Of a stretch of 64,000 nucleotides of DNA, positions 8,598-16,410 are shown in pieces. The stretch comes from an uncultured Anaerolineae bacterium (lineage in GTDB: Bacteria; Chloroflexota; Anaerolineae; J036; Brachytrichaceae). The DNA is taken from NCBI GenBank assembly GCA_937959265.1, contig CALGMA010000019.1:124001-188000 (forward strand). The letters run 5' to 3'. Each line of letters starts with the position of its first letter. Within the stretch, counting starts at the first letter, position 1. The notes beneath the pieces were generated by a model. It had not been told where the DNA came from. It worked only from the letters and a program-made list of their open reading frames with translations, and made no database searches. Both the position numbers and the translations under genes were made by a program.

Positions 8598-9284
8598 GTG
8601 AACATCCTCGTCATCATCGCTCATCCTGATGACCCTGAGTTCTTCGCTGGCGGCACGATTGCCCGTTGGTGCCATGAAGGCCATGACGTGCGCTACGTCG
8701 TCGTCACTGGCGGTGACAAGGGCAGCGACCAGCCCGATATGACGCCGGCTCGGCTCGTGGCTATCCGCCGCGACGAGCAACGCAACGCCGCCGCCATTCT
8801 GGGCGTGCGCGATGTCACCTTCCTCAGCCACGTGGACGGCGAGCTGCTAAATACGCTAGACGTCCAGCGTGATCTGGTGCGCGAGATCCGACGGGCGCGC
8901 CCGGATATCGTCCTGACGACTGACCCGCAGACCCTGCACTACGGCGCGATGCGCGTCAACCACAACGATCACCGCGCCGTTGGCCTGGCGGTTTGCGACG
9001 CGATCTTCCCTGCTGCGGGCAATCGAATGTACTTCCCCGAACTGCTGGCGGATGGCTTCGAGCCTCATGCGCCGAAGGAGATCTACTTTGCTGGCCCGGC
9101 CCGGCCGAACACGCTGGTGGATGTCACTGATTTCATCCAGACCAAGATCGAGGCGATCCGCATGCATGCTTCGCAGGTGAAAGCGCCGGACGAACTCGAG
9201 TCGCGCATCCAGCAGGGGCTGTTGCGCATGACCGCCGACGGCCGCGTCTTCTTTGCGGAAGCGTTCCGGCGCATCTTGCTATAA
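8598..9284 (+). CDS. PIG-L/LmbE family deacetylase
   Basis: 228 residues starting at a GTG. It shows the zinc-binding AHPDDPEFFAGG (residues 8-19) with His, Asp and Asp, and the second zinc-ligand region NHNDHR (near 119-124). The family removes acetyl groups from N-acetylglucosamine-type substrates; members act on GlcNAc-inositol, bacillithiol or mycothiol precursors, and lipopolysaccharide sugars. The exact substrate cannot be read here. Single domain, usual length, no signal peptide. The context (just upstream of membrane-anchored glycoside-hydrolase-like genes) is compatible with a cell-surface sugar role. Confidence 0.9.
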   Translation: MNILVIIAHPDDPEFFAGGTIARWCHEGHDVRYVVVTGGDKGSDQPDMTPARLVAIRRDEQRNAAAILGVRDVTFLSHVDGELLNTLDVQRDLVREIRRARPDIVLTTDPQTLHYGAMRVNHNDHRAVGLAVCDAIFPAAGNRMYFPELLADGFEPHAPKEIYFAGPARPNTLVDVTDFIQTKIEAIRMHASQVKAPDELESRIQQGLLRMTADGRVFFAEAFRRILL

Positions 9285-9591
9285 ACTTCAGGGGATGCTG
9301 CGCTTGCAACGCAGGCAATCCCGGATGGCACGTCCGGCAGCCGGAGTCGCCCGCGTTGGAACGGATGACGCGCGCAGACGCCGTGCTAGAATGCGCGGCT
9401 GCGTTATCCTGGAATCGAAATCTGGAATGATGGATTCGATGAAATGAACCGGTCGGCTACTGCCGCGCGCCAAGGCTAGGACGACTCATTCCACTGCACC
9501 CAGGCCGATCGCGTTCCGCCAGCATATGGCCTGCGCCGCATCAGGCGCTTGTGAGTTCATAGAGGGTAACGCTTTAACACGAGGCGCACAC
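9285..9591 (+). other. Intergenic region with promoter for the GH-like cluster
   Basis: The 307 nt gap holds no convincing gene. At 9365-9370 ATGACG (4 of 6 against TTGACA), then 16 nt, then TAGAAT at 9387-9392 preceded by TGC, making an extended -10. Transcription would begin near 9399, leaving a 5' leader of about 190 nt before the ATG at 9592. No terminator hairpin for the upstream deacetylase gene was recognised. Confidence 0.4.
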
Positions 9592-12540
9592 ATGAATGGG
9601 CCTTCTATGCATCGAGAATCTGATTCGAATGCTTCGGGCACTTCAGATCCCGGTTTATCAGGCTTTACAGAGACGCCGGTCATTGACCGTATTCCCAGGC
9701 TAGCCAACAGAAGAAAGCGCAAGCCGCCGCGCCCAACCCGTGAAACCCCACGCACGCAGTTCTTGTTGCCGACGACGCGCGCGGGTTGGCTCAAAGCGAC
9801 GGGCATTGCATTTGGCGCCGTCCTGGCTGTGGGCGCTGCGCTCGTGGGCCTGCACCTGATCAGCGCCAATGGCTGCAGCGAATTCACCACTGAGCGGACG
9901 ACGGTGGCCGCCGAAGGCTTTCAGATTCGGGTGATGCCGAGCGACTTGACCGGCAGCTTCGGTGTGAAGCTGGGCGTCTTGTCGTTGGCCGACCTCACCG
10001 CTGCGTCCCGTGATGCCGAGCTTCAGGCTGCCGCTTCCAGCTTGCCATCTGGGTTAACGCTCGTGAGCGACCCGGTCAGGGTCAAAACCTGCAGCGCCAA
10101 CCCCAGACTGGCGATGCTGCGCATGAGCATCCCGCCTGACGTGGAAGCGGACGCGAGTCTAGATTTGTATGGCTGGGACAGCCAAGCGCGCGCGTGGACA
10201 TGGCTCGGTGGTGAGTTAGATGCGGCGTCTCGAGCAGTCGTGGCGTATGTGAGCCGCGTGCCTTCGCTCGTGGCGCTGATGAAAGTTGCGCCCATTCCGC
10301 CTTTGCTCAGCATCGAACTACCGCCGGCGACCCGTGATCCGTCGGCGATTGTCCAGTCCCTCCCACCCGGCGCCGTCCATGCCACTGGCCTCTATCTGGG
10401 CGACGGCGGCAGCATCGTCGGCGATCCAAGCAAGTTGCTGCGGCTGAGCGGCGCGCCCATGAGGGCTATCCCGGTCGTGCGCAACTGGGGTGCACAGGGC
10501 GAAGTCAACCGCACGCTGCTGCGTGCGATGCTGGCCAGCGAAGCAAGCCGCGCCGCGCATGTGAACGCTCTACTCGGCCTCGTCGCGATCGGCGGCTTCG
10601 AAGGCGTGCAGATAGACTATCGCGGCGTAGAAGGGATACAGCGCGACGCCTTCTCACAATTCATCGAGCTGCTCGGCGCGCGTTTGGCCGAACGCGGCAA
10701 GACCCTCAGCGTCGCCGTCCCCGTACCTTCGCTCACCGGCGCGACCGGCGACGCTGCCGGCGCAGCCAGTGTGTTCGACTCATCGGGCTACGACCTGTAT
10801 CGGATTGGCCGGGCCGCCGCGTCGGTGCAGCTCGATTTGAGTACCAACCCCGAGGCGTGGTGCACCAGTCAGTTGGACCCGCTGATGGCTTGGGTGGTTG
10901 GCCGCGTTGATCGCCACAAGTTGCAGGTGATCGTCCCGACCCTGGGCGTTCAAAAAGACGCCAACGGGCGTGTGAGACTGATTGGCCTGGAAGAGTCGCT
11001 CGCCGGTTTGCGCGGGCTGCAGACTGTAGCGCCCGCCGTTGCGCCTGGGGCAAGCGTCAGGGTTTGGTGGAGTGGCGATGTCGAACCGTCCGATGTGCGC
11101 TACGATGCGACCGGTCAGTTCTACTCCTATAGCTACGTGGACGAACGCGGTATCCAGCAGACGGTGTGGCTGAACACCGCTGCCAGCTTGAAGCGCACGC
11201 TGGAGCGCCTCAGCCGACACAACATTCGCGGCGTCACGTTGCGTGGGTTAACGCACCCCGGTAACGACGACGGCGTTATGCAGGTCGTGGACGGGTTCAT
11301 GCGCGGCGATCTGGCGTCGGTGCAGGCGCCGGAACCGGTAATCAAGGTATCGTTCGGCGCCGGCACGCCGTTCAGCCTTCCCCTCAGCCAGAGCCCGGAC
11401 ACGATGGTTGTGCAGGCGCCCGGCGGCGAGGGTGAGTACGAGATCGCTTCTACGTTTCAAAGCGCGCGGACGGTGCCGTTGAACCCGGCACGTGTAGCGG
11501 TGTCCAAAGATGCGACAACTGCCGAAGGCGGCGCAAACGCGGCGTCCGTTGCGTCGGTCGCTGCTGGTCAAGCGTCTCAGGGCGCCGTGCCGCCCATACC
11601 CGGCGTGAACGCCGAGCTGTTCGAACTCGGCGGACACGTCAACGACCTGGTTCACGCCGCACAGATGAAGACTGCAGGCATGACTTGGGCGCGCACCGAA
11701 GTGCGTGGTGAAGTGTTGCCCGAAGCCTTCATCGCCGAAGCCAAAGCCAAAGGATTGAAAGTGCTCGTCACCGCCGTCGGCGATCGCAACCGCGTCATGG
11801 ATATCGCTTACCGCGATCAGTGGGCGCAATACCTGGGCAACATTGCGACTGCCGGCGCGGATGCAATCGAGGTGTGGAGCGAGCCGAACTATAAGGCAGA
11901 ATGGCCGGCCGGCCAGATCAGCGGCGCGTCTTATGCCGACCTGTTGAAGCGCGCTTACTTTGCCATCAAACAGGCTAACCCCAACACATTGGTGATCAGC
12001 GCCGGCTTAGCGCAAACATCGGGCGTATATTCTGGCGGCTGTGCCGAGGATGGGTGTGACGAGCTGGCCTTCCTCAACCAGATGGCCACCGAGCATGCCC
12101 AGGATTACATGGATTGCGTGGGCGTCCATTACACGTCTGGCTTTGAGTCGCCCAGCGCCGTAGGTGCGCTCCATTACTCTCAGTATTATGAACCGTTACG
12201 CAACGCGTATTACGGCGCGTTCAACGGCGCCAAGCCGGTGTGCTTCACAGCGCTGGGCTATGTGACAGCGGATGGTTTCCCTTCAGGAATGCCGGCCAAG
12301 TATTCGTTTGCCGCAGGCACGACGCTGGCCGATCATTCAGCATGGTTGGCCGAAGCGGCTAAGCTCTCCAAAGCAAGCGGCAAGGTGCGTTTGATGATCG
12401 TGTGGAACGTGGACTCGACGGAGTGGATCGCGGATGATCCTTCCCAAAACCTTGAAGGTGATCCTCAGGCAGGCTACGCCATGATTCGACCCGACGGCAC
12501 GTGCCCGGCTTGCGAATCTTTGCGCAGCGTGATGAAATGA
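9592..12540 (+). CDS. Membrane-anchored GH18-like plus GH39-like protein, probably catalytically dead
   Basis: 982 residues. One transmembrane helix lies near residues 66-86 after a basic region, so most of the chain is outside the cytoplasm. About 90-220 is a beta-rich region; about 240-600 resembles the YaaH/SleL-type GH18 barrel (GGFEGVQIDYRGVEG, then RGKTLSVAVPVP); about 660-980 resembles a clan GH-A barrel (VWSEPN). The expected catalytic Glu of the GH18 motif DxxDxDxE is Arg344, and the nucleophile of the second barrel (TEFGW in the two paralogues downstream) is TALGY, Ala887. Thus both active sites look lost, though E764 of WSEPN remains. The start was chosen at 9592 with GAGG 7 nt upstream, not 9526. 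It overlaps the next gene by ATGA. Confidence 0.75.
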   Translation: MNGPSMHRESDSNASGTSDPGLSGFTETPVIDRIPRLANRRKRKPPRPTRETPRTQFLLPTTRAGWLKATGIAFGAVLAVGAALVGLHLISANGCSEFTTERTTVAAEGFQIRVMPSDLTGSFGVKLGVLSLADLTAASRDAELQAAASSLPSGLTLVSDPVRVKTCSANPRLAMLRMSIPPDVEADASLDLYGWDSQARAWTWLGGELDAASRAVVAYVSRVPSLVALMKVAPIPPLLSIELPPATRDPSAIVQSLPPGAVHATGLYLGDGGSIVGDPSKLLRLSGAPMRAIPVVRNWGAQGEVNRTLLRAMLASEASRAAHVNALLGLVAIGGFEGVQIDYRGVEGIQRDAFSQFIELLGARLAERGKTLSVAVPVPSLTGATGDAAGAASVFDSSGYDLYRIGRAAASVQLDLSTNPEAWCTSQLDPLMAWVVGRVDRHKLQVIVPTLGVQKDANGRVRLIGLEESLAGLRGLQTVAPAVAPGASVRVWWSGDVEPSDVRYDATGQFYSYSYVDERGIQQTVWLNTAASLKRTLERLSRHNIRGVTLRGLTHPGNDDGVMQVVDGFMRGDLASVQAPEPVIKVSFGAGTPFSLPLSQSPDTMVVQAPGGEGEYEIASTFQSARTVPLNPARVAVSKDATTAEGGANAASVASVAAGQASQGAVPPIPGVNAELFELGGHVNDLVHAAQMKTAGMTWARTEVRGEVLPEAFIAEAKAKGLKVLVTAVGDRNRVMDIAYRDQWAQYLGNIATAGADAIEVWSEPNYKAEWPAGQISGASYADLLKRAYFAIKQANPNTLVISAGLAQTSGVYSGGCAEDGCDELAFLNQMATEHAQDYMDCVGVHYTSGFESPSAVGALHYSQYYEPLRNAYYGAFNGAKPVCFTALGYVTADGFPSGMPAKYSFAAGTTLADHSAWLAEAAKLSKASGKVRLMIVWNVDSTEWIADDPSQNLEGDPQAGYAMIRPDGTCPACESLRSVMK

Positions 12541-14039: not shown

Positions 14040-15206
14040 ATGAGACGAGCACGCCGGGCTGCCTGGATGGCTGTCGTGGCGCTGGCGACCGCATGCGCAG
14101 CGCCGAATGCCATGCGCCTGCCGCAGCAAGCCGAGTCTGCGCGGCCTGTCGCGCCGCAGTTCCCCCCGCCGCGCCGGGTCGAGTCGCCCGGCTATGGATT
14201 CGAGGCCTACCTGTGGTGGAAGCCGGAGATCGCCACGCGCGACTTGGGGCTCATTCGCGAGGCCGGCTTCAAGTGGGTCAAACAGACCTTCGCCTGGCGC
14301 GACATCGAGATCGAGAAAGGCAAATACGACTGGAGCCGCGCCGATGAGGTTGTGTTCCTGACGACGGAGGTCTTCACGCGCAACTTGATCGTGCGGTTGG
14401 ATCGCGAGCCATATTGGGACCGCCGCGACTACCCACTCGGCCAGGGCATCGCTGCCGGCCCGCCGCGCAACCTTCAGCATTTCTTTGACTTCTGCGCCAC
14501 CATTGCCGCGCGCTACAAGGGTAAGATCGCCGCGTACCAGGTGTGGAACGAGCCGAACCTGGCGCGCGAGTGGGGCGGCATGCCCCCCGATCCGCGAGCC
14601 TACGTCGAGATGCTGAAGGGATGCTACCTTGCAATTAAGCAAGCCGATCCCGACGCGTTGGTGATCAGCGCCGGCCTGGCGCCCACCGGCACCGGCCCAC
14701 CGTTGGCCATGCCGGACGATCAATTCCTTATCGCGATGTACGAGGCCGGCGCAGCGCCCTACTTCGACCTGTTGGGCGTGCACGCGCCCGGGTTCCGCGC
14801 TGCGCCGGAGACGCCGCCCGGCATGGCTGTCAGCATCCCTGAACTGGGTGGGCAACGTTTCTTCGCCTTTCGCCACGTCGAGGACTTGCGGGCGATCATG
14901 GAGCGCTTCGGTGATGGCGACAAGCAAGTCGCCGTGCTGGAGTTCGGCTGGACGACCGATCCGGTCAACATTAACTACGCCTGGTTCGCTATAGACGAGC
15001 AGTTGAAGGCGGACTACATGGTGCGCGCCTTTCGCTGGGCCAGACAGAATTGGCGGCCGTGGATCGGCCCGATGATCGCGCTCTCCATCCCGCAGTTCGA
15101 CTGGACGTCGCAGAACGAGCAGTATTGGTGGGCCGTCGTGGATCCCTACTACCCGGAGACGCGCGTGCGCCCGGCCTACGAAGCGCTGAAGGCGATGGAC
15201 AAGTGA
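14040..15206 (+). CDS. GH39/GH5-like glycoside hydrolase, likely lipoprotein
   Basis: 388 residues. The N-terminus has two Arg-rich turns, a short hydrophobic stretch AWMAVVALATACAAP and a cysteine at residue 19 that could be lipidated, although the residue at -3 is Ala and not the favoured Leu. The rest is one clan GH-A type barrel: E171 in VWNEPNLAREWGG as acid/base candidate, E301 in VLEFGWTTDP as nucleophile candidate. It is a paralogue of the two upstream genes, 30 nt downstream, and the methyltransferase starts 7 nt after its stop. The activity is intact by motif but its substrate is unknown. Confidence 0.75.
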   Translation: MRRARRAAWMAVVALATACAAPNAMRLPQQAESARPVAPQFPPPRRVESPGYGFEAYLWWKPEIATRDLGLIREAGFKWVKQTFAWRDIEIEKGKYDWSRADEVVFLTTEVFTRNLIVRLDREPYWDRRDYPLGQGIAAGPPRNLQHFFDFCATIAARYKGKIAAYQVWNEPNLAREWGGMPPDPRAYVEMLKGCYLAIKQADPDALVISAGLAPTGTGPPLAMPDDQFLIAMYEAGAAPYFDLLGVHAPGFRAAPETPPGMAVSIPELGGQRFFAFRHVEDLRAIMERFGDGDKQVAVLEFGWTTDPVNINYAWFAIDEQLKADYMVRAFRWARQNWRPWIGPMIALSIPQFDWTSQNEQYWWAVVDPYYPETRVRPAYEALKAMDK

Positions 15207-15213
15207 TCTGGCT

Positions 15214-16410
15214 ATGCGGTGCGTGTTCGATGTTCTCGACGGCGCGCCATTGCGCGATGTGTTTAGCCTGGCCGGGCGCGCCATCCCGCGCATTGCCGGC
15301 GAATTCTGGACGGCGCAGCAGCGACAGGCCTGTTCGCTCCATGAAATCTCGTATCGCGCCTGCTTCAAGCCGCAGCTCCCGCGCTATTTCATCGAGCGGC
15401 TAACTCAGCCCGGCGACGTTGTGTATGATCCGTTCAGCGGGCGCGGGACGACGGCTGTTGAGGCGGCGCTGTTGGGCCGGCGCGTCATCGCCAACGACGT
15501 GAACCCGCTCAGCGCCATCCTGACCACGCCGCGTTTGCGCCCGCCGACGCTCGAAGCGGTGGCCGACCGGCTGGCGCGCATTCCAGACTCCTCGCAACGC
15601 GCCGAGGTTGACCTCTCGATGTTCTTCCATCCGGATACCGAGCGCGAGATCGTCGGCCTGCGCGGCTACCTGGCGGCGCGCTGCCAGGCCGGTGAGGAAG
15701 ACGACGTGGACGCCTGGATCCGCATGGTGGCGACCAACCGGCTGACCGGTCACTCGCGTGGCTTCTTCTCGGTCTATACCCTGCCGCCTAACCAGGCGGC
15801 CAATCCCGAGCGCCAGCGCCGCATCAACGCTCGCTTGAATCAGCAGCCCGAATACCGTGACACGCGGGCGATCATCTTGCGCAAGACGGCGAGCCTGCTG
15901 CGTGGGCTTACCGAGGCGCAGCGCGAGAACCTGCACGCCGCAGCCGAATCGGCGCTGCTGCTGACCTGCGACGCGCGAAGCACGCCGGCCATCCCGGACG
16001 GCAGCGCGCAGCTCACGGTCACTTCGCCGCCGTTTTTGGACGTAGTGCAATATGCCGCAGACAACTGGCTGCGCTGTTGGTTCAACGGAATTGCGGTCGA
16101 AGAGGTCGCGCCGCGCATCACGCTGTCACGCGCGTTGGAAGCCTGGTCAACTGTGATGCGTGCGGTCTTCGACGAGCTGCATCGAGTTACGCGGCTGGGC
16201 GGCTGGGTGGCGTTCGAGGTGGGAGAGGTGCGCGGGGGGCGCGTGCGCCTGGATGAACATGTCGCCCCGATAGGCGAATCGGCCGGCTTCACCTGCGCCG
16301 CGATCCTGGTCAACCAGCAGCGCTTTACCAAGACTGCCCACATCTGGGGCGTGGCCAACAACGCCTGCGGCACGAACACCAATCGCATCGTGGTCTTTCG
16401 CAAGGAGTGA
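15214..16410 (+). CDS. Orphan DNA (amino) methyltransferase-like protein
   Basis: 398 residues. Motif I is D72-P-F-S-G-R-G-T-T with VIANDVNPLS after it, a SAM-binding region. The catalytic motif is T270-S-P-P-F, of the TSPPY/F type seen in N4-cytosine and some N6-adenine methylases. Motif I comes first and the catalytic motif about 200 residues later, with a variable domain between, which is not the order of classical beta-class N4 enzymes. No restriction endonuclease or specificity subunit lies nearby. It sits 7 nt after a glycoside-hydrolase-like gene and is probably co-transcribed with it. An RNA substrate is possible. Confidence 0.75.
   Translation: MRCVFDVLDGAPLRDVFSLAGRAIPRIAGEFWTAQQRQACSLHEISYRACFKPQLPRYFIERLTQPGDVVYDPFSGRGTTAVEAALLGRRVIANDVNPLSAILTTPRLRPPTLEAVADRLARIPDSSQRAEVDLSMFFHPDTEREIVGLRGYLAARCQAGEEDDVDAWIRMVATNRLTGHSRGFFSVYTLPPNQAANPERQRRINARLNQQPEYRDTRAIILRKTASLLRGLTEAQRENLHAAAESALLLTCDARSTPAIPDGSAQLTVTSPPFLDVVQYAADNWLRCWFNGIAVEEVAPRITLSRALEAWSTVMRAVFDELHRVTRLGGWVAFEVGEVRGGRVRLDEHVAPIGESAGFTCAAILVNQQRFTKTAHIWGVANNACGTNTNRIVVFRKE

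Follow-up and report, generated by a model that had tools for sequence, protein, structure and literature searches.

A membrane-anchored two-barrel protein of Anaerolineae with substitutions at the catalytic positions of both a GH18-like and a GH39-like barrel

Among GH18 proteins, the chi-lectins keep the fold after the catalytic glutamate has been lost or disabled, and some of them bind sugars (as described in the part of PMC3662789 drawn on here); examples of this type, namely YKL-40, YKL-39, SI-CLP, TCLL and narbonin, come from animals or plants. The portion of PMC1945033 available to us gives leucine, isoleucine or glutamine as the residues that replace the glutamate, and narbonin is described there, and in the same part of PMC3662789, as having its glutamate locked by an arginine. 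The protein family analysed here resembles the chi-lectins in that both keep a GH18 barrel without a working catalytic glutamate, but differs in that the residue at this position is mostly arginine and in that the proteins are bacterial, membrane-anchored and fused to a second glycosidase fold. Among solved structures, the first barrel is closest to SleL/YaaH, YdhD and further YaaH-type GH18 proteins of bacteria; enzymes of the YaaH type carry Asp-x-Glu at the site, whereas the protein described here carries Asp-Tyr-Arg. For the second barrel, the nearest solved relative by sequence, and one of the nearest by fold, is PslG, a GH39-like endoglycosidase of Pseudomonas aeruginosa, for which the available portion of PMC11912335 gives Glu165 as the acid/base and Glu276 as the nucleophile; at the nucleophile position the present protein has alanine. 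Searches of open-access literature listings gave no description recognised as this two-barrel family.

The gene lies within a window (that is, the whole stretch of DNA that was analysed) of 64,000 nucleotides, from a genome of 4.0 Mb in 52 contigs; its features are collected in Table 1. The reading frame is already open from an ATG at 9526, so translation may in fact begin 22 codons further upstream. The hydrophobic segment (Kyte-Doolittle windows above 1.6 begin at residues 66-77) is preceded by a basic, proline-rich N-terminal tail of 65 residues, and a Pfam scan of the beta domain that follows it (residues 93-243) gave no match. Because the protein scores only 23.7 bits against Pfam PF00704, under the cut-off of 29.6, and has no match in NCBIfam, proteins like this one are easily overlooked; the Pfam GH18 model likewise found no match in the window's genome, a result that concerns clear GH18 proteins only, since the window gene itself was unlisted. 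The named contigs matched by the protein include two labelled Candidatus Roseilinea, which NCBI places in the Chloroflexota, class Candidatus Thermofontia, and others labelled Anaerolineae or Thermoflexales; in the counts below, 'order' and 'class' are the taxonomic groups of the genome collection used.

Table 1. Features of the two-barrel gene and its downstream neighbours (window coordinates)
Feature	Position	Strand	Basis
Two-barrel membrane-anchored protein, 982 aa	9592..12540	+	ORF translated from ATG 9592
Single hydrophobic segment, aa 66-95, likely transmembrane anchor	9787..9876	+	Kyte-Doolittle
Beta-rich extracytoplasmic domain, aa 93-243	9868..10320	+	predicted strands, pLDDT mostly >90
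GH18-like (SleL/YaaH-type) barrel, aa 236-573	10297..11310	+	model fold match and alignments
Arg297-Asn298, beta 3 of GH18-like barrel	10480..10485	+	alignment
Arg344 codon, position of GH18 catalytic acid Glu	10621..10623	+	translation and alignment
GH39/PslG-like clan GH-A barrel, aa 672-982	11605..12537	+	model fold match and alignments
Ser763-Glu764: acid/base Glu kept, Asn before it replaced	11878..11883	+	alignment
Ala887 codon, position of catalytic nucleophile Glu	12250..12252	+	translation and alignment
ATGA overlap of this gene's stop and the next gene's likely start	12537..12540	+	
Downstream GH39-like paralogue, intact VWNEMN and VTEFGW, hydrophobic N-terminal segment	12537..14009	+	
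Second downstream GH39-like paralogue, intact VWNEPN and VLEFGW	14040..15206	+	

An earlier, sequence-only reading of the gene had proposed that both folds are preserved, and AlphaFold2 models, built from order-level alignments (pLDDT 89 for the N-terminal half and 91 for the C barrel), agree with it, at Z scores of about 27 to the SleL/YaaH type and about 24 to GH39/PslG. More precisely, residues 236-573 form a GH18-type TIM barrel that matches 4q6t and 5jh8, both YaaH-type GH18 structures (Z 27.1, rmsd 4.1-4.2, 296-297 residues aligned), and SleL 4s3k (Z 26.6), with a Foldseek E-value of 5.7e-19 and a profile E-value of 4e-20; the C-barrel model (residues 672-982) has the (beta/alpha)8 fold of clan GH-A and matches GH39 5jvk (Z 24.7) and PslG 9g17 (Z 24.3). 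GH18 enzymes are marked by an MxYD motif on beta 6 and a tryptophan on beta 8, and clan GH-A enzymes by an acid/base glutamate after beta 4, preceded by an asparagine, and a nucleophile glutamate at the end of beta 7. Translation from the ATG at 9592 puts Arg344 (context GVQIDYRGV, 10603-10629) and Ala887 (context FTALGY, 12244-12261) at the residues given in that reading. A profile alignment to 5jh8 sets DYRG over DFEA, and thus Arg344 on the catalytic glutamate, as does single-sequence alignment to YaaH-type GH18 proteins. The C-barrel model places Ala887 on strand 7 and Glu764 directly behind strand 4, which are the clan GH-A positions; Ala887 was located through this seventh-strand position together with alignment to the TELGY/TEFGW of the paralogues. 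The alignment to PslG, which ends before the nucleophile, sets Glu764 over the glutamate of WNEPN, and the latter we take to be the acid/base Glu165 named in the available portion of PMC11912335.

The same reading held that both catalytic sites are replaced, which is true of the GH18 glutamate and of the GH39 nucleophile but not of the acid/base Glu764, which is still there. In the first barrel the loss goes further than had been claimed: besides having arginine in place of the catalytic acid of the DxxDxDxE motif, the window protein has LDLS instead of MxYD and arginine instead of the beta-8 tryptophan. Profile matches to the N-terminal half occur in 20 of the 28 genomes of the window's order and in 321 of the 396 sampled from the class, mostly as open frames of about 1000 residues (the 321 include a few ordinary GH18 proteins, such as that of G130, L185). 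All 21 order-level homologues (18 two-barrel and 3 one-barrel, one of the former, L043, being from another family outside the order) have Asp-(Tyr/Phe)-Arg-Gly. In a first sample of 66 distinct members (21 order-level and 45 class-level, with duplicate loci removed), position 344 is Arg in 61, Gln in 3, His in 1 and Ala in 1, and in none is it Glu. Because this sample favours high scorers against a profile built from Arg-type proteins, 30 lower-scoring genomes were taken as a control; their 29 members have Arg (14), Gln (10), Ser (2), Ala (1), Gly (1) and Glu (1), the only Glu (in L162) standing without the neighbouring Asp, and the thirtieth genome has an ordinary GH18 (L185, 391 aa, with Glu) that was excluded from the pooled set. 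The pooled counts (n = 95) are thus Arg 75, Gln 13, Ser 2, Ala 2, His 1, Gly 1 and Glu 1, with a further five proteins, L136, L137 and L138 (Arg), L155 (Asp) and L139 (Leu), falling outside the 95. A strict class-wide fixation of arginine is rejected by the lower-scoring control (only 14 of 29): arginine is the commonest successor of the catalytic glutamate, not the sole one, and what is constant is the loss of the glutamate.

Ordinary YaaH-type GH18 proteins of other Chloroflexota classes, in contrast to the two-barrel family, keep the catalytic glutamate in 15 of 15 cases, and those that align there also have MxYD and the beta-8 tryptophan, the former being changed to other residues in the family and the latter to Arg, Gln, Glu and others. 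The two groups are split at 100/99 in a midpoint-rooted tree of 64 rows (44 of the 66 family members, the 15 ordinary GH18 proteins and 5 others, among them L139 and L155, the Leu and Asp proteins, both labelled as family), from which near-copies (L009-L014, L021, L049 and L050) were left out and 13 more were dropped purely by a length limit. The beta-3 pair is Arg in 61 and Asn in 64 of the 66 first-sample members, ordinary GH18 proteins having mostly His-Asn there; in the lower-scoring sample the arginine (297) is found in 8 of 30 rows. A ring of three arginines that would include Arg551 was considered and rejected, since Arg551 occurs in only 27 of the 66 (24 of 66 in a second alignment). 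With the glutamate gone in nearly all 95 members and other site residues changed as well, the GH18 site was lost early and class-wide. A shortened version of about 500 residues, with the first barrel only, occurs in three genomes of one genus (L048, L049 and L050); part of the C-terminal half of this barrel is absent in the alignment, and a TEFGW paralogue is still the next gene.

The second barrel has a different history. Its nucleophile position, readable in 84 members, is Glu in 69, Ala in 13, Asp in 1 and Arg in 1, and the acid/base glutamate is present in all 84, in both samples; 9 of the 66 first-sample rows lack a second barrel at these positions, and L175, L183 and L185 of the lower-scoring sample lack a readable second-barrel motif. 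All 13 cases of alanine at 887 fall within the window's order; the 18 order-level C barrels, L043 counted, include 13 with Ala887 and 4 with Glu887 (loci L038-L042 come from the same genomes as G017, G019, G021, G024 and G020, and were counted once). Hence, of the two substitutions that the earlier reading proposed to follow in orthologues, the arginine is uniform at order level (21 of 21), whereas the alanine is found in 13 of 18 and the second barrel is mostly Glu class-wide; orthologues with glutamate at both positions, which that reading had named as counter-evidence, did not turn up, Glu344 occurring in 0 of 21 and Glu887 in 4 of 18. In a tree of 57 related C barrels (duplicates and the fragments L032 and L033 excluded), the Ala group is one side of a single branch (100/96), so that alanine has one origin there. 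Its sister, L017, keeps Glu887, with other residues of the site already changed, and the next branch is L047, which has Asp at the nucleophile position. All 13 members of the Ala group share fixed replacements at 808, 824 and 848, and 12 of them lack the asparagine before the acid/base (the window protein has serine there, Ser763); position 703, on beta 2, is Glu in 11 of 13 and non-acidic in 2.

A comparable change is seen in L170, an ORF of 1059 aa that encodes both barrels in a genome (G246) of a different family of the class. It has arginine at the GH18-like site, arginine for the GH39-like nucleophile and arginine for the asparagine before the acid/base, has Asp at 703, and shares Thr at 848 and Tyr at 904 with the Ala group. 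L170 lost its nucleophile independently of the Ala group, so that loss of the second site is repeated. That the two barrels lost their sites in one event is rejected because the phylogenetic depths differ: the GH18-like loss is old and class-wide, and the second-barrel loss is recent and found in the window's order and once more in L170, which makes them separate events.

As the earlier reading stated, the two genes that follow have TEFGW and LEFGW, and the first of them is probably translationally coupled to the two-barrel gene through the ATGA overlap. Of the 60 family ORFs with an inspectable neighbour (69 ORFs were surveyed, 9 of which have no neighbour on the stretch), 41 have a GH39-like paralogue as the very next gene, and among single-barrel paralogues with a readable motif, both downstream genes included, no loss of Glu was found, the sole Ala in the list being a fragment of the window gene itself. 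The nearest same-genome paralogue of the second barrel, about 45% identical, is a stand-alone GH39-like protein (L002, contig C27 of G000) with WTELGY and VWNEPN, both glutamates intact, and relatives order-wide. A PIG-L-type deacetylase gene (8598-9284) stands just upstream of the two-barrel gene, a linkage that may be incidental, such a gene being upstream in just 3 of 70 compared rows; a conserved wider operon was considered and rejected, given these 3 of 70 compared ORF rows and 4 of 70 with an upstream PSP1-like gene. Beyond the paralogues, at 15214-16410, is a methyltransferase-like gene, for which NCBIfam gives only weak matches, to methyltransferases of DNA and of other kinds.

Selection was estimated as dN/dS (Nei-Gojobori, own script) over 28 pairs among eight genomes of the genus. 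The Ala barrel has a median of 0.075 and the intact downstream barrel one of 0.043; the beta domain stands at 0.130, and the GH18 barrel, at 0.185, is evolving more quickly than the second one. The proposal that this is a membrane pseudoenzyme accordingly finds support in both modelled folds, the hydrophobic segment at 66-95, substitutions common to orthologues and purifying selection; the carbohydrate-binding or scaffold role that was also proposed is a putative one.

The explanation we favour, at a probability of about one half, is that the window protein is a double pseudo-glycosidase on the membrane that would bind or position an envelope glycan for its intact neighbours. In this explanation one N-terminal helix would anchor the protein, with the beta domain and the two TIM barrels facing outside the cytoplasm. 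The YaaH-type GH18 site was lost before the family spread through the class, and, with the catalytic Glu, MxYD and the beta-8 Trp gone, the first barrel is not expected to work as a hydrolase of the GH18 type. In most relatives the GH39/PslG-like barrel is probably catalytically active; within the window's order the nucleophile became alanine, nearby residues changing along with it, leaving a putative subunit that binds and positions a cell-envelope or sheath polysaccharide, whose hydrolysis may fall to the overlapping GH39-like paralogue or paralogues downstream, in which the catalytic residues are intact. What is seen is consistent with glycosidase folds having turned to non-hydrolytic roles twice in succession and having been maintained by selection. 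Several observations weigh against this explanation: Glu764, unneeded under pure loss of catalysis, is kept in 84 of 84; Arg344 is far less constant in lower scorers (14 of 29); the GH18 barrel, at 0.185, evolves faster than the second; and L017, sister of the Ala group, keeps Glu887 though its site is partly changed. In addition, absence of the beta-8 tryptophan argues against ordinary chitin-type binding in the first barrel.

A more specific proposal, which we regard as tentative, is that the proteins form a class-wide, Anaerolineae-type envelope family whose GH18 domain may have been rebuilt as a new binding site, often with an arginine pair (R297, R344) that would suit an anionic envelope polymer, and whose second barrel may have been inactivated on two or more independent occasions (the window's order and L170), giving an all-binding partner of the overlapping active paralogue. 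Somewhat more doubtful is the idea that both barrels are protein-protein modules that hold an envelope complex, neither of them binding sugar. The membrane anchor and multi-domain build, the missing GH18 beta-8 tryptophan and the overlapping downstream paralogue are all consistent with such a structural scaffold; against it, residues at the catalytic ends are among the most conserved in both the first barrel (R297, N298, D342, Y343, R344 and D401) and the second (W699, W762, E764, N766, D841 and Y890), and a pure scaffold would have no need of these, although some may serve folding.

It is unlikely, in our estimation, that the second barrel is still an enzyme of altered chemistry, in which Glu764 would act without a classical nucleophile, the nucleophile coming from outside or from the substrate, or an acid having moved. 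In its favour are the invariant acid/base (84/84) and the acidic residue at 703, which is Glu in 11 of the 13 Ala-type proteins and Asp in L170, where the change is independent; relocated catalytic residues are known from other pseudoenzymes (the available part of PMC10211241). Yet 12 of the 13 Ala-type proteins have lost the asparagine preceding the acid/base, position 703 is non-acidic in 2 of 13, and PslG itself seems, when its single-sequence alignment is read by eye, to have an Asp near 703, so that an acid there does not by itself amount to new chemistry. Relaxed decay of a redundant gene, or an assembly error, could account for replaced catalytic residues in both barrels but is scarcely credible, because the same residues, Ala887 included, recur in 13 separately assembled genomes from three genera, in an open frame under purifying selection (dN/dS well below 1).

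The double pseudo-glycosidase favoured here belongs to a bacterial family in which a dead GH18 barrel stands beside a second glycosidase barrel, which most members keep intact and a few lineages have switched off, the dead GH18 proteins treated in the consulted parts of the cited literature being those of animals and plants. The family thus offers a natural before-and-after series of an enzyme becoming a non-hydrolytic protein, and it hints that these bacteria, known mostly from metagenomes, have a polysaccharide system of the envelope or sheath.
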